From an uncultured Granulosicoccaceae bacterium (lineage in GTDB: Bacteria > Pseudomonadota > Gammaproteobacteria > Granulosicoccales > Granulosicoccaceae), in the NCBI GenBank assembly GCA_937951345.1, contig CALFCF010000001.1, positions 1-64,000 on the forward strand: a stretch of DNA of 64,000 bases. The letters are read 5' to 3'. The notes beneath the pieces were generated by a model, which saw only the letters and a list, made by a program, of their open reading frames with translations, did no database searches and was not told where the DNA came from. Shown here one piece after another: positions 1 through 45,705 of this stretch; positions within the stretch are counted from its first letter, which is position 1; each line of letters begins with the position of its first letter. The position numbers were made by a program, and so were the translations under genes.

Positions 1-137
1 ACCTCTGATTTATTAGGCGAGGCAGGCAGGGCAAGGCGAAATTTGGCGAAAAAGCGGAGTGTATATGCGAATACATGAGCATTTTGAGCCGAATTTCAAC
101 GCAGCCCTGGCAACGCAGGCGATAAATCAGAGGTTCC
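1..137. repeat. Palindromic element, family 1, copy 1 (left end cut by window)
   Basis: The stretch starts with ACCTCTGATTTAT and ends at 122-137 with ATAAATCAGAGGTTCC, its inverse complement. It matches the complete 140-bp copy at 8667-8806 at all but three of its 137 visible positions. In the middle sits a small hairpin, TGTAT (60-64) and ATACA (71-75) around a 6-nt loop. There is no coding capacity. Size, terminal inverted repeats and near-identity of two copies 8.7 kb apart fit a non-autonomous mobile or REP/MITE-like element; no transposase is nearby. Confidence 0.85.
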
Positions 138-8605: not shown

Positions 8606-8666
8606 AATTGTTTTTAGCTTCGTTGCAAAACCACAACACAAATACAGTAAACCGTAGCAAAACTAA

Positions 8667-8806
8667 GGAACCTCTGATTTATTAGGCGAGGCAGGCAGAG
8701 CAAGGCGAAATTTGGCGAAAAAGCGGAGTGTATATGCGAATACATGAGCATTTTGAGCCGAATTTCAACACAGCCATGGCAACGCAGGCGATAAATCAGA
8801 GGTTCC
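8667..8806. repeat. Palindromic element, family 1, complete copy
   Basis: A 140-bp element with perfect 16-bp terminal inverted repeats, GGAACCTCTGATTTAT (8667-8682) and ATAAATCAGAGGTTCC (8791-8806). The central hairpin is TGTAT (8729-8733) and ATACA (8740-8744). It is nearly identical to the copy at 1-137. Its right end touches the 45-bp direct repeat that starts at 8808, so the element marks the left border of the accessory stretch. Confidence 0.92.
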
Positions 8807-8807
8807 C

Positions 8808-8852
8808 TAAATATCCAACCCTCTTTGAGCTGATTCCTGAAGTGGCTGGCTG
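8808..8852. repeat. 45-bp direct repeat, left copy (att-like)
   Basis: It is identical at 44 of 45 positions to 12275-12319. Read on the minus strand it encodes the last 14 residues of the SRAP protein (SQPLQESAQRGLDI) and a stop codon, but no SRAP sequence continues upstream apart from a few further similar bases. A copied gene end of this sort is what a site-specific integration at the SRAP 3' end would leave. Confidence 0.8.
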
Positions 8853-12273: not shown

Positions 12274-13032
12274 TTAAATATCCAACCCTCTTTGAGCTGA
12301 TTCCTGCAGTGGCTGGCTGCATTCCGGTCCGGTGTTGCGGGCGTTGCTGACATAGCTGCTGACCTCGTGCATGCTCAGCCAATCGTTGTCGATAGGCGCC
12401 ATCAGGCTATCGATTTTTTGGTGACTATCGGTTGCCTTCTGGTGTTCATTGGCACTTCCACTGGCTTTATCGTCACTCATCCAGTCACCGATATCGTCAG
12501 GGCGAATAATGACGGGCATTCTGTGATGAACCTTGTTCATCTCATCGTTGGCAGCTGTGGTTAGCAGCGTGACCTGCACATCGTCTTCAACCTCTTGATA
12601 CAGTGCGCCGAACAGCATCGCGCGTCCTTTGCTCGGGTAGATGTAAAACGGGCGCTTGGTGTTGCCGTCGCGATGCCATTCGTAAAAACCCGTCACTGGA
12701 ACCAGGCACCGGTTAGGACCAATAAGGTGACGAAAGGAGGGTTTTTCTCTTACAGTTTCTGAACGAGCGTTTATTAGTGGGCGTTTGAATTGCCCGTCAC
12801 GCGCCCACGGGGGGACCAGACCCCAGTTCATTTGTCGGTGTTGGTAGGTGCCGTCAGATGATGTGGCTTCGGCAGCATCACTAGTGTTTGGCTGTCTGCG
12901 CACCAACACGTCCAGCGATTGGGATGGAGAAACATTGAAGCGTGGACTGGCTGCCGGCCAGGATGACAGACCGACGATCTCCATCAGGAATCGGATGCCT
13001 TCATTGTCGGTGATGTTCATGCGTCCACACAT
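12274..13032 (-). CDS. yedK: SOS response-associated peptidase (SRAP/HMCES, YedK-like)
   Basis: It protects abasic sites in single-stranded DNA by forming a DNA-protein crosslink through the N-terminal Cys2, exposed after Met1 is removed. In 252 residues the active-site set is present: Cys2 (MCGR), Asn88 (LINARSET), Glu118 (GFYEWH) and His170 (HHRMPVII). The region after about residue 180 is longer than in E. coli YedK and poorly conserved. The last 14 codons and stop are duplicated at 8808-8852. It is divergent from nth with 72 bp between, so two DNA-repair genes share a promoter region. Confidence 0.92.
   Translation of the reverse strand: MCGRMNITDNEGIRFLMEIVGLSSWPAASPRFNVSPSQSLDVLVRRQPNTSDAAEATSSDGTYQHRQMNWGLVPPWARDGQFKRPLINARSETVREKPSFRHLIGPNRCLVPVTGFYEWHRDGNTKRPFYIYPSKGRAMLFGALYQEVEDDVQVTLLTTAANDEMNKVHHRMPVIIRPDDIGDWMSDDKASGSANEHQKATDSHQKIDSLMAPIDNDWLSMHEVSSYVSNARNTGPECSQPLQESAQRGLDI
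12275..12319. repeat. 45-bp direct repeat, right copy (SRAP gene 3' end)
   Basis: It contains the last 14 SRAP codons and most of the stop codon. It is identical to 8808-8852 apart from one base. The two copies enclose 3.4 kb with genes of unrelated function. A gene 3' end is the usual target of tyrosine integrases, but no integrase remains between the copies. Confidence 0.8.
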
Positions 13033-35121: not shown

Positions 35122-36189
35122 ATGGCTCAACCAAGCACTAAGCCGAGTGATCAAGAGATTACGCATCAACCGGTGCGAAGCGGGCGTGCTATGCGACGCT
35201 TCCGTACGGTAAGTCTGGCAACCGTACTGACGATTTATGTGCTCATATTGGTGGGTGGAATCGTCAGGGCAAGCGGCGCCGGCATGGGCTGTCCGGACTG
35301 GCCGACTTGCTTTGGACGCTGGATCCCCCCGACAGCCGAATCACAACTTCCTGCTGACTACCAAAGCATCTATGCTGATCTGGGTTATCGCGATACAACA
35401 TTCAATGTGCGAAAAACCTGGACGGAATACGTCAACCGGCTACTGGGTGTGTTCACAGGACTGTGGATCCTGGCGACACTGCTGTGCGCATTGCCATTAC
35501 GTCGGCAAGACAGAGGATTACTGTGGGTGTCGTTCACGGGATTTATTCTGGTGGCGTTTCAGGGCTGGCTCGGATCACGCGTTGTTGCGAGTAATCTGGC
35601 ACCGGGGATGATAACGCTGCACATGGTGGTGGCGCAGATTATCGTATGTCTGTTGCTGTATGCGTATTTGCGTTCGCAGCGTGATGTTCTGATTGCTCAG
35701 TCGAGCAATGCGTTGGGGCGACTACCCCGGCTACTGTTATTTAGCGCGATTGTCGTGACGTTAATACAATTGTTGTCGGGTACGCAGGTGCGTGAGTCGA
35801 TAGACATGATTGCGAAACTTAACAACAACGAAAACCGGCATCTCTGGGTTGATAATCTGCCGTTGATTTTTTCACTGCACCGCATACTTGCTTATCCTGC
35901 TGTGCTCCTGAACCTTCTCGTTGTGGTGTTGATATTTCAAACGCGTTCGCTTGCACCTTCAGCGTATCGTGTAGCGGTTGTAGTGGCGGGTTTGACGATC
36001 GGCGCAATGGTGATGGGTTTGACGCTCGACCGATTGCACGTACCGGCGTTTGCGCAACCACTGCACTTGTGGTTTGCATCCATGATATTGGGTGGGTTGT
36101 TCTATCTGGTGTTTGTCGATCGTTATGCCCGGCAGGCTAATCGCCAGCCGTCAGGTGTTGATGCAAGCCTTGCCGCGACCGGCTCCTAG
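35122..36189 (+). CDS. ctaA: Heme A synthase (COX15/CtaA)
   Basis: Converts heme O to heme A for aa3-type cytochrome oxidase. 355 residues with eight membrane helices. Family motifs GGIVRASGAGMGCPDWPTCFGRWIPP, the helix-loop TWTEYVNRLLGVFTG, and conserved His in TLHMVVAQI, FSLHRIL and QPLHLWFA (heme ligands) are present. The oxidase genes themselves are not in the window. Its stop codon lies inside the left arm of a 23-bp hairpin shared with the end of apt. Confidence 0.94.
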   Translation: MAQPSTKPSDQEITHQPVRSGRAMRRFRTVSLATVLTIYVLILVGGIVRASGAGMGCPDWPTCFGRWIPPTAESQLPADYQSIYADLGYRDTTFNVRKTWTEYVNRLLGVFTGLWILATLLCALPLRRQDRGLLWVSFTGFILVAFQGWLGSRVVASNLAPGMITLHMVVAQIIVCLLLYAYLRSQRDVLIAQSSNALGRLPRLLLFSAIVVTLIQLLSGTQVRESIDMIAKLNNNENRHLWVDNLPLIFSLHRILAYPAVLLNLLVVVLIFQTRSLAPSAYRVAVVVAGLTIGAMVMGLTLDRLHVPAFAQPLHLWFASMILGGLFYLVFVDRYARQANRQPSGVDASLAATGS

Positions 36190-36236
36190 CCTGCTCTATT
36201 CATGAAGGGTTCGCCTTCGTGAATAGAGCAGGCTAG
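36186..36236. terminator. Bidirectional hairpin containing both stop codons (ctaA and apt)
   Basis: A 23-bp stem (36186-36208 with 36214-36236; one G-T pair in one orientation) and a 5-nt loop. Each arm begins or ends with CTAG; the ctaA TAG (36187-36189) and the apt TAG (36233-36235, minus strand) lie in mirror positions in the arms. There is no T-run, but the hairpin is by far the most stable of the window and lies exactly between convergent genes. Confidence 0.8.
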
Positions 36237-36760
36237 TGCCCGGAAAATTCACACAGACAGTGTGTCGGGCAATCCAGCGCTTCAATCTTGTCCAGGCCAC
36301 CGAGATCGGGCAGGTTGACAATAAACGCGCAACCGATGACGTGGCCACCCAGTTGCCGAACCAGTTTGACGCCCGCTTCGCAGGTCCCACCTGTAGCGAT
36401 TAGATCATCGACAATCAGCACCTGGTCACCCGGTTTGATCGCATCCTCGTGAATCTCGACGATTGCCTGACCATATTCCAGCGTGTATTCCTCGGCCACT
36501 GTTTTCCACGGCAGTTTGCCTTTCTTTCTCACTGGTACAAATCCGACGGAGAGTTGATGCGCCACCGCGCCGCCGATAATGAAGCCCCTGGCTTCCAGCG
36601 CAGCTACTTTGTCGATGCGTTGACCGGCGTAGGGCAGCAGCAATCCATCAACAGCCATGCGAAAACCGCGCGCATCATTGAATAGCGTGGTCACATCGCG
36701 GAAGATAACCCCTTCTTCGGGAAAGTCTGGGATAGCCCGAATAAAATCCTGAATTTTCAT
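36233..36760 (-). CDS. apt: Adenine phosphoribosyltransferase
   Basis: Purine salvage: adenine and PRPP to AMP. 175 residues, standard length, with PRPP-binding motif [13 protein letters not shown] and the Apt-specific [32 protein letters not shown] and VRKKGKLP. Monocistronic, convergent with ctaA, divergent from the CoA-transferase gene with about 100 bp between. Confidence 0.96.
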
Positions 36761-38270: not shown

Positions 38271-38954
38271 ATGAATCTGGTTGGAATGCTTGGAAAAATG
38301 GTGTTATCGAACGCGATGTCGCGTGGTGGTGGCGGTAATTTGCTTGGTAGTTTATTAGGCGGGGCACAACAAGGTGGCATGGGTGGCGCCGGTGGTGGTC
38401 TTGGCGGAATGCTCGGCAGTTTAATGGGTGGACAGACTGGCGGTACGCAGCAACCCGGTGGCATGCTCGGTCAGATTTTAGGTGGACAGGGCGGGCAGGC
38501 AGGTGGTGGTGCTGGCGGTCTTGGTGGTCTGCTCGGACAGGCAATGGGCATGAACCAGCAACAAAACCAGCCGCAGATGCAAGCACCTGCAGCTTCGCAA
38601 AACGACCAGGCGGCGATCATGATCCGCGCAATGGTGAATGCGGCCAAATCGGATGGTCAGATTGATGAGCAGGAACAGCAGAACATCGTCGGCAAGCTCG
38701 GTGGTGATATCGGCGCTGAAGAAGCTCAATTCATCCGTAACGAAATGGCTGCACCACTGGATGTCAATGCATTTGCGCGAACAATACCCCAGGGTATGGA
38801 GCAGCAGGTTTATCTAGTGTCTTTAATGGCCATCAATCTGGATAACAAAGCAGAGGCTGTTTACCTCGATCAGTTGGCCAAGTGCCTTAACATCAATGAG
38901 CAGCAAAGTAATCAGTTGCATGCTGAATTGGGTGTCCCACAGCTGTACAGTTGA
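38271..38954 (+). CDS. DUF533/TerB-like protein with glycine-rich N-terminus
   Basis: 227 residues. The first 110 are Gly/Gln/Met-rich low complexity (repeats such as GGGLGGMLGSLMGG). From about 115 on comes a helical tellurite-resistance TerB/DUF533 domain (AAIMIRAMVNAAKSDGQIDEQEQQNI, QVYLVSLMAINLDNKAEAVYLDQLAKCLNI). E. coli YebE is a relative; function is unknown. No signal peptide, but the Gly-rich part could associate with membranes. Monocistronic. Confidence 0.87.
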   Translation: MNLVGMLGKMVLSNAMSRGGGGNLLGSLLGGAQQGGMGGAGGGLGGMLGSLMGGQTGGTQQPGGMLGQILGGQGGQAGGGAGGLGGLLGQAMGMNQQQNQPQMQAPAASQNDQAAIMIRAMVNAAKSDGQIDEQEQQNIVGKLGGDIGAEEAQFIRNEMAAPLDVNAFARTIPQGMEQQVYLVSLMAINLDNKAEAVYLDQLAKCLNINEQQSNQLHAELGVPQLYS

Positions 38955-39069: not shown

Positions 39070-39213
39070 TAGAAGCCATCTCAAAATCGATCTTGCACGC
39101 TGATCCTGCGTTGTGTGCCGTTCTGCGCTGCTCATTTACTGCGTGTAAACTGCGCTGCTCGAGCGCCACACGCCTTGTCTGAGCGTTCAATCTCAATTTT
39201 GAGATGGCTTCTA
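39070..39213. repeat. Palindromic element, family 2
   Basis: A 144-bp element with perfect 18-bp terminal inverted repeats, TAGAAGCCATCTCAAAAT (39070-39087) and its inverse complement (39196-39213). A central hairpin is formed by TTTAC (39135-39139) and GTAAA (39145-39149). No coding capacity. The ends differ fully from the family 1 elements at 1-137 and 8667-8806, but the inverse strand of the core aligns with theirs (CAAGGC, central hairpin, TGAGCA, CAACGCAG in the same order and spacing). Confidence 0.85.
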
Positions 39214-39255: not shown

Positions 39256-41184
39256 ATGAACATGTCGCGATCAATCATGTCGAGATCACATAAAACCCCC
39301 GGCGCCTGTTTAAGCGTCTGCATGATGTTATTACTTGCCAGTGTCCTTGTGCCGGGTAGTTTACAAGCCCAAATAACGGTGTTCGCCGAATGCAACTACC
39401 AGGGCAAAGCTATTTCTCTTGCGCCGGGTATTTACGACACACGTGCGCTGAACCGTGCCGGTGTGGGTGACAACTCCATCTCCTCCATTGTCGTGTCTGA
39501 TGGCTTTTCTTCGACTCTTTATGTTGACGATCGCTTTGAAGGCACCTCGGGTACATTAAAGAAGTCCAATAGCTGCCTGCACAATACCTATAAGGGCAAC
39601 ATTTCTTCACTAACTGTACAAAAGCGTGGCAACGAAAAGCTGGCTCAGCAGGCGGTAGAGGAGCGTTATCCACGAAATAAAACATCTGCCGGTGTGACGT
39701 TCTACGGGTTGTGCGACTATCGCGGCAAAGCAGTTACTCTTCCGGCAGGTGACTACAGGCTGGCTGATCTGCAGGCCGCCGGGATAGCTAACAATGATAT
39801 TTCGTCACTGAAAATTCCGCGGGGTTTCTCGGTGATAGCCTATGCCAATGATTTCCTCCGCGGTGATTCACTAGAGCTTCAGAATAGCGATAGCTGTCTG
39901 TCTAACGACGGCTTTGACGAAACGATTTCATCACTGTCGATACGTGTGGACCCCCGATTTGTCGCTGACAATACCCGGGAAGAGTCATTCAATTCACAAA
40001 CAGTGATTGCCTATAGTGAATGTAATTATCGCGGTACAGCGGTAGAGCTTGCGGCGGGCGAATACACGGAAAGCGATCTGCTGCAACGCGGCATGCGCAA
40101 CAATTCGATTGCGTCCTTGCGCGTACCGGAAGGGTTTTCGGTAGCGGTGTATGAGAACAATTTTTACCGGGGCAACGGCGCCTTGCTGGAAACCGATGTC
40201 GCCTGTCTTGACGGTCGTGCACTTAGCAACAAAATCAGCTCCGTTGTTGTTGAAGGCTCTGCGGTAAACGCATCGCAGTCCACAACGCAAGCGGGCAGTA
40301 CCGCTGGTTCAAACGCTTCATCGGCTGTGGTTACGTTGTTTTCGAAGTGTGGTTATGAGGGTAATCGGGTTGCGCTGCCGGTAGGCGAATATAACTCGGA
40401 GCAATTGCAGCGCCTCGGTATGCCTGACAATGCGTTGTCCGCTATGCGAGTAAACCCCGGTTACGAGGCCGAACTATTTTTCTTTGATTTTTTTCGTGGT
40501 AAGTCGGGTGTTCTGCGCTCCGATGATAGTTGTCTGTCCAACGACGGTTTTGACAACGAGGTTTCGTCTATTCGTGTAAAACGCACCGGAACAGGTGGCA
40601 GCACTGACAACTACAGTGAGGGTATAGCTGGGAATGCCGATGATTTTGCTGCAACTGTCTACGGCCAATGCAATTTTGCTGGTGGTAATGTGTCGCTGCA
40701 ACCCGGACGATATACGCAAACGCAGTTGGCTGAGCTCGGTATCGGCAATGACGCTATTGCATCACTACGCGTGAAACCCGGCTTCACTGTTGTGCTTTAT
40801 GACAATGGTCAGCATCGCGGGCGGGGTGTACCGTTTAACGCTGATGATAATTGTCTTGACGATAATAATCTGTTGCGTCGCGTGTCTTCGCTGGTGATCG
40901 GCAAGACCCCCGAGCGTAGCAACAGAAACAACAATGCGGGTTCTCTGTCGTCCGGCGCATCAACTTCTCCTGCTCTGGCACAAGGTATTAACTGCGTATC
41001 GTTGTATGTGGAACGCAATCTGTGTGAAGCCAGACGATGGACTGCAATGGCAAATCGCTGCAAGCTCGAGCGTATACCGAACATGAGCGACGGATATCTG
41101 GAGTCACAGGTGCTTGCCGGTAACTGTACCAGTGCCAATTGGCCTACACTGCGGGAACGTATACGCAATCCGTCGTTACGTTAG
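39256..41184 (+). CDS. Exported protein of five beta/gamma-crystallin domains
   Basis: 642 residues from the ATG at 39256, which follows AGGAAG; the frame opens earlier at a TTG. A signal peptide ends near SLQAQ. Five beta/gamma-crystallin domains of about 85 residues follow, each beginning like VFAECNYQGKA and ending in a SSLxV strand, each with two conserved Cys that could form one disulfide. Calcium-site motifs (N/D-N/D-x-x-S-S) are intact in domain 1 (DNSISS), domain 2 (NNDISS) and late domain 4 (DNEVSS) and altered elsewhere. A 65-residue tail with four Cys closes the protein. Probably a periplasmic or extracellular calcium-binding structural protein. Confidence 0.88.
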   Translation: MNMSRSIMSRSHKTPGACLSVCMMLLLASVLVPGSLQAQITVFAECNYQGKAISLAPGIYDTRALNRAGVGDNSISSIVVSDGFSSTLYVDDRFEGTSGTLKKSNSCLHNTYKGNISSLTVQKRGNEKLAQQAVEERYPRNKTSAGVTFYGLCDYRGKAVTLPAGDYRLADLQAAGIANNDISSLKIPRGFSVIAYANDFLRGDSLELQNSDSCLSNDGFDETISSLSIRVDPRFVADNTREESFNSQTVIAYSECNYRGTAVELAAGEYTESDLLQRGMRNNSIASLRVPEGFSVAVYENNFYRGNGALLETDVACLDGRALSNKISSVVVEGSAVNASQSTTQAGSTAGSNASSAVVTLFSKCGYEGNRVALPVGEYNSEQLQRLGMPDNALSAMRVNPGYEAELFFFDFFRGKSGVLRSDDSCLSNDGFDNEVSSIRVKRTGTGGSTDNYSEGIAGNADDFAATVYGQCNFAGGNVSLQPGRYTQTQLAELGIGNDAIASLRVKPGFTVVLYDNGQHRGRGVPFNADDNCLDDNNLLRRVSSLVIGKTPERSNRNNNAGSLSSGASTSPALAQGINCVSLYVERNLCEARRWTAMANRCKLERIPNMSDGYLESQVLAGNCTSANWPTLRERIRNPSLR

Positions 41185-43743: not shown

Positions 43744-45705
43744 ATGAGAATCGGTCACTTCGTTGCACACGCGACTGCGCTTGTAGTGGTAGGTTTACTG
43801 GCAGGTTGTTCGTCGGGCAGCGATAACGCGCCAACTGATGTGCCGGTTGATGCAACAGACAACGCGGTAGATACATCGACGCAGCCGCAGTTAATCGGGC
43901 AATCACCTTCTGCAATGGATGACACCAGTGATACAAATACTGCTGTCGATGAGCCTACCGTCACCCCACAGTCTCCATCACCGGAACTGACAATCGATGA
44001 CACCGGTTCACTGGTAAGTGACTTACCGTTTATCACTGACGATTCGTTGGTTGAGGTCGTACCACCGCAGACTGTAACCGAGCCGTCGATCAACCCTGAG
44101 CCTGACACTGTTGTCGACACGGAAACCACTGTTGATGAAACTGTTGCGGACGTACCAGTAACAACACCTGAGGTTATAACGGACAACGAGGCAACGCAGG
44201 ATGCTTCTGTGTTGAACCCGTTTCTATTGGATGGTACGCCACGCGGGACACCGCCTATACCGTCCACAGCGCCGGACGATTGCATACTGGCAGTGGCAGG
44301 CGATGGTGCTATTTTTTGCTTTAGCCCTGCGACACGCACGTTGCGCGCCTGGGGAAGCACATCCGTTCCCTGGTGGTCGTTTGAGCTACCCGGCGACAAC
44401 GCTACCAACATCATTCGCGGTTTACAGGTTATCGACCAGCGGTTGATGCTGGTTGCTGAAATTCGTGTACCTGAACTCGAAAGGCGACTGGAGGTTTCGG
44501 TTTTTTCTACAGGTGGCCAGTTTGATCGCAGTATTTCATTCTGGACGCATAACACGGATCTCGATCTGGCAACACATCGTCTGTCAACAGCAACGCTTGA
44601 TGGAGACTTAATTGTCGTTACAGATCAGGGCGATTTCTCGAATAACATACTGCCGAATGCTAACCATGGGACGCAGGTGTTGACACTTGATATTCCTGAT
44701 GAAGGTATCGCAATTCGCTTTAACTATCTCCCGGATATGAGGCAAACCAACCCGTTGCAAATAATTAGCAACGCTGATAACGAAAATGATACTGAAGCTG
44801 CTAGTGAACAACTCGTACTTGAATTGGGTCATCAGGTAAGGTCAGTGGAGTCTCCTGCGCGGCTCAGTGTGGATAGTCTTGGTTCTTTCCAGTCGATACC
44901 TTTTACGCGCCGGAATTATCTACAAAAGAAAAGTCGTCTGACAGGTCTGATTGAATCACCACTATTACAGCAATTAGCCGAAAAAATTGAAAATGGTTAT
45001 CTTGATTTGCGTAATCAGGCGGGTGCATCGCTGGCAGATGCCATGCAGATTGCATTCGAGTGTCCGGATGGGGGTACCGCGCAGCGTATAGCTTCAGCCG
45101 GTCTGACTTCTCAAAGAAGCAGCTATATATTTGAGAATTGCAGCAGTGATAATTTAAGCGCAAACGGCACTTATACAAAAATCATGGGTGACTTTTGTGG
45201 AAGAGATTGCAGAGGGCCGCAACTGAATCTCTCGTTTACCGATTTCTCTGCAAGCTTTGCCGATGGAGACATATGGTCAGTACAGGGTTCCTTAATCCGC
45301 AACGCGGATCGCCTGAGTGCCACTCAGACCGGAGGGTTGATTGAAAATCCGGTGACTGACTACAGGAATTCCACGGATATCGAAGCGCTGACACTAGGCG
45401 ACAATGGCTTGTTGCTGCAGATTGATGCAGCAGCTTACGCGTATAGAGGCACTGCACTTAACGGAACGGGTAGCTGGTCCGGTAGCGGGTCATTAGTACA
45501 GCGCGACAATAGCACTGAATCATTTGATATGGACATGACCCGTACGCTGGAAGAGGGTGTTCAAACGCTGTTAACCGGTTACATTGAAGGTCGGCGAAGT
45601 GATGGTACTTCGTTACGTGTTGAAGTCGGTGGTGAAGATGAGCAACAGTTGACCTACACTGTGAGTGCCGGCACTGAATCGATCAGTATTGTCAATGACT
45701 GGTAA
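43744..45705 (+). CDS. Large lipoprotein, unknown
   Basis: 653 residues; lipobox LLAGC (Cys22). Residues 23-165 are an acidic Thr/Asp/Val/Pro-rich, probably disordered stalk. The central part (about 180-380) contains repeated short strands (DDCILAVAGDGAIFCFSP, NIIRGLQVIDQRLMLVAEI, LDGDLIVVTDQGDFSNN) that suggest a beta-propeller-like fold, and the C-terminal 250 residues look like a beta-rich domain with four Cys. No family recognised. Likely in an operon with the spondin lipoprotein. Confidence 0.75.
   Translation: MRIGHFVAHATALVVVGLLAGCSSGSDNAPTDVPVDATDNAVDTSTQPQLIGQSPSAMDDTSDTNTAVDEPTVTPQSPSPELTIDDTGSLVSDLPFITDDSLVEVVPPQTVTEPSINPEPDTVVDTETTVDETVADVPVTTPEVITDNEATQDASVLNPFLLDGTPRGTPPIPSTAPDDCILAVAGDGAIFCFSPATRTLRAWGSTSVPWWSFELPGDNATNIIRGLQVIDQRLMLVAEIRVPELERRLEVSVFSTGGQFDRSISFWTHNTDLDLATHRLSTATLDGDLIVVTDQGDFSNNILPNANHGTQVLTLDIPDEGIAIRFNYLPDMRQTNPLQIISNADNENDTEAASEQLVLELGHQVRSVESPARLSVDSLGSFQSIPFTRRNYLQKKSRLTGLIESPLLQQLAEKIENGYLDLRNQAGASLADAMQIAFECPDGGTAQRIASAGLTSQRSSYIFENCSSDNLSANGTYTKIMGDFCGRDCRGPQLNLSFTDFSASFADGDIWSVQGSLIRNADRLSATQTGGLIENPVTDYRNSTDIEALTLGDNGLLLQIDAAAYAYRGTALNGTGSWSGSGSLVQRDNSTESFDMDMTRTLEEGVQTLLTGYIEGRRSDGTSLRVEVGGEDEQQLTYTVSAGTESISIVNDW

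Follow-up and report, generated by a model that had tools for sequence, protein, structure and literature searches.

We found that two palindromic repeat families, F1 (family 1) and F2 (family 2), that occur together in a stretch of 64 kb of DNA (the window) are probably two lineages of a single non-autonomous, MITE-like superfamily, whose body would be selected for its fold and whose exchangeable ends would let IS5-type transposases act on it in trans. What can be read from the sequence itself is a common body, covariation within it, strand asymmetry, varied types of ends and duplications, a chimera of the two families, and an insertion that a congener lacks. In kind these elements are MITEs: they are short (140 bp for F1 and 144-158 bp for F2, below ~500 bp), dispersed and without a transposase. 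Terminal inverted repeats are found in F1, F2 and a further end type, A, and target site duplications in F1 and type A, with F2 displaying TA only. What is new is a folded interior conserved across phyla and combined with exchangeable ends.

Three elements, two of F1 and one of F2, lie within the window. The F2 element (39070..39213, body strand minus) is an imperfect palindrome of 144 bp with TA at both edges and perfect 18-bp ends, TAGAAGCCATCTCAAAAT/ATTTTGAGATGGCTTCTA. Its terminal inverted repeats GAAGCCATCTCAAAAT are located at 39072..39087 (plus strand) and 39196..39211 (minus strand), its conserved folded body at 39093..39187 (minus strand), and its central hairpin AGTTTACACGCAGTAAATGAGCA, with the stem TTTAC/GTAAA, at 39129..39151 (minus strand). 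The usual full-length F2 in the source genome (G000, a draft assembly) measures ~154-158 bp rather than 144 bp; a 14-bp unit (body-strand sequence GACTCGGCGTCCCC), present zero to three times among F2 copies, is missing from the window copy. This unit is found in tandem near the right F2 end (for example in L009, L019, L026 and L136), and in one of these F2 copies, L136, the CAAGGC block is repeated threefold. The left neighbour of the window F2 is a gene for a DUF533 protein (38271..38954, plus strand), and the element is followed after ~40 bp by the start of a gene for a beta/gamma-crystallin-domain protein (39256..41184, plus strand). A species of the same genus possesses the orthologous DUF533/crystallin pair with a shorter spacer and no F2; as the two spacers have diverged, this establishes absence of the element and not a base-exact empty site.

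The complete F1 element of the window (copy 2, 8667..8806, plus strand, 140 bp) has the terminal repeats GGAACCTCTGATTTAT and is flanked by CTAA at 8663-8666 and 8807-8810, with its conserved folded body at 8691..8786 and its central hairpin AGTGTATATGCGAATACATGAGCA at 8727..8750 (both plus strand). Copy 1 (1..137, plus strand; body at 22..117, plus strand) lost the first bases of its left end to the contig start, and is directly followed by TTAA at 138-141. Several contigs of the source genome begin or end inside F1, including at window position 1, and F1 repeats appear to break this assembly. A 45-bp direct repeat (8808-8852 and 12275-12319, 98% identical) starts at the right edge of F1 (8806), its second copy being 3.5 kb away. 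A further repeated palindrome of the source genome, starting with CTAGCCTGCTCTATTCATGAAGG, is found at 36179-36243 and in the flanks of L012, L022, L024, L080 and L145. It adjoins several F1 or F2 copies and may mark an insertion hotspot or constitute a third mobile family.

The minus strand of F2 carries, in order, CAAGGCG, AGT-TTTAC-acgca-GTAAA-TGAGCA and CAACGCAG, and the blocks of F1 are CAAGGCG, AGT-GTAT..ATAC-ATGAGCA and CAACGCAG. A sequence-only reading of the window had claimed this shared order between F1 and the inverse strand of F2, together with two-sided changes in the central stem, and reading both sequences confirmed the two claims: two of the five stem pairs differ, with both sides altered each time. 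It had further proposed a comparison with shuffled palindromes, on which the pairwise likeness proved modest, its inner local score of 22 being equalled by 83 of 5000 shuffled palindromes (1.7%), so that outside evidence was needed. A covariance model, R2, derived from 60 sequences with none from the source genome, was decisive. Scanning the window with R2 returned exactly three sites and nothing else at E<=5, namely F1 copy 1 (91.5 bits, E=7.2e-20), F1 copy 2 (84.3 bits, E=4.2e-18) and F2 (model positions 1-95, 66.8 bits, E=7.7e-14), with E-values that are rough because calibration was shortened. Judged by sequence and model, F1 and F2 are one superfamily with a common, predicted folded body.

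The superfamily suggested by the earlier reading also gained support from scans of its class and phylum. R2 located 89 body copies in the source genome; a complete pseudomonad-like genome (G451) has 69 and a third genome (G322) 42. In a phylum-wide sample scanned with R2, with only ten candidates scored per genome, the body was detected at E<=0.001 in 125 of the 398 genomes and 53 of the 213 genera. A loose pattern of the central hairpin, in which the flanks and inner TA pairs were fixed and the remainder was free, occurred 66 times in the source genome and was found in 82 of the 274 genomes representing its class, with up to ~80 occurrences per genome; the reversed pattern, used as a control, gave about a dozen matches in all. 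Among the matches listed for a stricter pattern, the named genomes were those of Pseudomonas, Stutzerimonas, Halomonas/Vreelandella/Billgrantia, Marinobacter, Marinomonas, Nitrosomonas and Chromobacterium, along with MAGs of Desulfobacterales and many of Alistipes and other Bacteroidota. Loci collected from pattern matches are alike in architecture and different in their outer ends, and form many intermediate families. By these scans, the predicted superfamily is present in between about one in four and one in three of the sampled proteobacterial genomes and in some Bacteroidota. Copies are mainly intergenic, frequently right behind stop codons. There were four matches in viral contigs and few in plasmids, mostly of Pseudomonas, and BLAST gave no match in E. 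coli genomes or phages. One plasmid copy (L457, Pseudomonas tremae plasmid p1, 79.7 bits) is situated immediately upstream of genes for coronafacic-acid-type biosynthesis; an annotated IS5 family transposase is ~1.3 kb away. The superfamily is apparently undescribed so far. The window had no match in Rfam 15 at gathering score, relaxed Rfam scans with elements of two relatives gave sub-threshold matches only, none of them near, and sequence and concept searches of open-access papers returned no description of the family or, as the sequence-only reading had supposed, of the link between F1 and F2.

Next, we examined the fold of the body, a long hairpin of ~95 nt on one strand with fixed internal loops and the tip AGTTTAC-loop-GTAAATGAGCA. 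Selection for structure had been suggested from the window, with covariation as its check, and a 67-sequence alignment supports the former by strong covariation. Standard pairs make up 92.4% of its cells, against 73.8% after shuffling and 33-41% when partners were slid by 1-3 positions. Changes on both sides of a pair number 362 versus 101 in shuffled alignments, and double changes affect 22 of 30 pairs. The central stem varies solely at pairs 2 and 5, where the two sides are paired or almost paired in every case (UA/GC, CG/UA), and these covarying pairs are exactly the two at which F1 and F2 differ. Where the search patterns fixed a position, its conservation follows from the search itself and is uninformative; the GAAA, CAAGGC, AACGC and TTTTGAG elements were left free in at least one of two pattern searches. 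With RNA parameters the AGT strand is the more stably folded of the two strands in 63 of 67 sequences, and with DNA parameters in 64 of 67. At variable pairs, G.T outnumbers A.C (83 vs 33) and G.A outnumbers C.T (72 vs 5). Stability and mismatch bias together indicate that one strand, that with AGT, is the folded one. The GA/GA, CAAGG and GSAG loops are kept from Pseudomonas to Alistipes. A reading of TTTAC-N-GTAAA as an operator in double-stranded DNA is disfavoured by the variation of the apical loop from 4 to 6 nt. A mini-ORF starting at ATGAGCA is open in 50 of 67 sequences against 37 expected, a weak excess.

Longer forms in G451, of 155-290 bp, contain inserts of 8-57 nt, many of which are hairpins. 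In those copies with alignable ends, the inserts occupy six internal-loop positions (the left outer loop, CAA|GG, the left GA loop, the GSAG loop, the right GA loop and the right outer loop) and none falls within a helix. The modules are mixed in varying combinations in this genome, and inserts in the left GA loop were also found in Desulfobacterales, Nitrosomonadales and other Gammaproteobacteria. Hairpin modules such as CGACTGCATGGATGCAGGAGGTAGAGCGAMGCAGGAAGCC sit at both outer loops in G451 loci L420-L433, L365, L391 and L396 and also substitute the entire ends of some G451 copies, which suggests that modules of this type are another repeat family recombining with elements of the superfamily.

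In contrast to the body, the ends vary between families and genomes. Copies of F1, with ends GGAACCTCTGATTTAT, are 94-98% alike and therefore recent. Exact 4-bp YTAR duplications flank 28 of 40 of them, and the non-palindromic cases are direct rather than inverted by 10 to 2. Type A ends of G451, CAGGCYGTTGAAAA, have exact 4-bp YTAR in 18 of 37 copies (non-palindromic cases, 11 direct and 0 inverted). F2, with ends GAAGCCATCTCAAAAT, displays TA/TA edges in 23 of 41 copies, and these are palindromic, so that a duplication cannot be proven from them. As YTAR is the target duplication of IS5 (PMC10359306), the IS5-group signature is present in F1 and type A and absent in F2. Other end types are GGGCRCCTCTAAAA, GTGTGAAAACG and TAGGCTCTGTACGAAAA in G451 and AGAACCTGTTTACGATC in G322. 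Two elements of the same genome, L370 and L373, have bodies that are 95.6% identical over 114 nt and terminal ten bases that differ at both ends. A chimera in the source genome (L121, contig C48, ~44758-44902) consists of a left half of F1 and a right half of F2 joined at the central hairpin. The differing terminal repeats and duplications, the end switch on 96%-identical bodies and this chimera uphold the idea of exchangeable ends put forward in the earlier reading. Its suggested tie to one transposase or RAYT family found no support: the duplications suggest several IS5-type transposases, and replication-strand bias is absent.

Scars in the source genome center on the same hairpin. Three F1 half-elements (L122, L127 and L135) are broken in the hairpin loop, after which there is a copy of ~18-27 bp of left flank, with short microhomology. 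In at least nine F2 copies the hairpin is gone, removed by a deletion of 27 bp that is bounded by 11-bp direct repeats. They are scattered on the F2 tree (8 changes versus a shuffled mean of 8.2, a comparison of little power with nine copies on a mostly unresolved tree), indicating that the loss recurs, with no visible multiplication of such copies. These scars suggest that single-stranded DNA folds into the central hairpin in vivo.

The same scars bear on an account in which selection on the body plays no role. The elements may be ordinary IS5-type MITEs descended from one old MITE, with a functionless body whose arms are maintained by quasipalindrome correction, whose ends drift with the available transposases, and whose loops are ancestral leftovers. 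This account is unlikely, but it draws on clear MITE hallmarks and on the template switching at the hairpin and the repeated slippage deletions just described. Moreover, arm-to-arm copying in palindromes also yields paired changes and is able to mimic covariation, so that the argument for selection has to be carried by the loops and the strand asymmetry. Arm copying would erase internal loops, yet GA/GA, CAAGG and GSAG remain; the strand asymmetry is strong, and large insertions keep out of helices. Taken together, the preserved loops, the strand asymmetry, the restriction of insertions to loops and the wide distribution speak in our view for a fold that is probably selected.

We then asked in which nucleic acid a selected fold would act. 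A structured RNA carried on MITEs (a regulatory RNA, a UTR element or a terminator-like insulator), with the transcript under selection, could explain why one strand is better folded and G.T is tolerated, and the hairpin modules inserted in loops recall expansion segments of structured RNAs. However, copies show no preferred orientation towards the genes beside them (42 same versus 47 opposite in tandem contexts, summed over five sets with crude ORF calls), the foot of the hairpin has no T-run, and Rfam gave no hit at gathering score, nor a near one at relaxed thresholds; we consider this explanation quite doubtful. The lack of orientation bias together with the DNA scars leads us to favour single-stranded DNA rather than RNA as the acting form.

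A single-stranded fold could itself be the substrate of transposition or site-specific recombination, by a RAYT/REP, an IS200/IS605-like HUH or an integron-type attC route. A long, imperfect hairpin in which unpaired bases are conserved, and copy numbers like those of REP/REPIN families, would fit, and like REP/REPIN with RAYT (PMC2817692, PMC3116915) the elements are many dispersed intergenic hairpins without a protein of their own. They differ from these in a length of 140-300 bp, in target duplications and in several types of terminal repeats; a REP is 20-40 nt with a GTAG foot and no duplication, and F1 and F2 have no conserved GTAG foot. As copies are also distributed without replication-strand bias (61 versus 67, with the origin assumed at base 1), this route is very improbable. 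Chance or palindrome convergence as the source of the F1/F2 resemblance, which the 1.7% of shuffled palindromes reaching the pairwise score might have allowed, is refuted by the independent R2 model (E=7.7e-14 for F2 and 7e-20 for F1) and by the many intermediate families.

Having weighed these alternatives, we return to mobilization of the superfamily by IS5-type transposases in trans. Neither the source genome (a draft; a partner can also be lost) nor the complete G451 yielded an autonomous element whose ends match. No kb-sized pair with matching ends was present among single F1 and F2 ends and F2-end pairs of the source genome or type A ends of G451. Inverted repeats of five DDE_Tnp_1 genes were absent or of another kind, and G322, with its 42 copies, had zero DDE_Tnp_1 matches. 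Among known systems, MITEPsy1 of Pseudomonas syringae, linked to the IS5-family ISPsy2, is likewise short, non-autonomous and palindrome-ended, and transposes in vivo with 4-bp CTAG/YTAA duplications that resemble those of F1 (PMC3189936). Its ends, GGAAGGTCTGAAAAAGCC, are near GGAAGCTCTGAAAAAG of the L172 element. It differs in its 100 nt, its low copy number and its lack of a match to the folded body; as it moves without this body, the body is unneeded for IS5-type mobilization in general. A Pseudomonas plasmid locus, L461, has the same end as MITEPsy1, GGAAGGTCTGAAAAAG, after CTAG, with an apparent protein-coding sequence at once behind it that we read as a putative IS5-type transposase. 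The ends of ISPsy19, GAGGGTGTAGACAAAAT (IS5 family, 3-nt duplication, PMC3189936), resemble GAGGGTGTTTACAAAA of the Billgrantia element L198 and relatives in L224 and L239; ISPsy19 is an autonomous IS, and the likeness is in the ends only. QMITE2 of Coxiella burnetii (PMC5896051), compared by its description, is a hairpin-forming, mainly intergenic MITE of 150-190 bp that differs in its longer and variable duplications and in having a GTAG REP.

We propose that short inverted repeats around the body would be recognised in trans by different IS5-type DDE transposases. Ends may be swapped when recombination or template switching takes place at the central hairpin, and arm-to-arm copying after hairpin joining would then produce a body with new paired ends. 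The least certain step is a possible contribution of the fold to the spread of the element, most likely in the form of single-stranded DNA in replication or transposition; it might, for example, draw the two ends together. More tentatively, and perhaps somewhat against the balance of probability, the folded body could be an independent genetic entity, namely a structured module of single-stranded DNA (or RNA), recognised by a conserved protein of the host or element, that spreads between phyla by borrowing transposase ends and grows via hairpin modules in its internal loops.

MITEs are commonly viewed as deletion products of one insertion sequence, with an irrelevant interior. Here the interior is conserved and the ends are replaceable, in several classes of bacteria from two or more phyla, and R2 is a covariance model ready for annotation. 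If our interpretation is true, the superfamily would account for a large number of intergenic hairpins of proteobacterial genomes that are so far uncatalogued, would be a natural system for studying how a non-autonomous element changes its transposase, and would make it testable whether a folded interior helps a transposon move.
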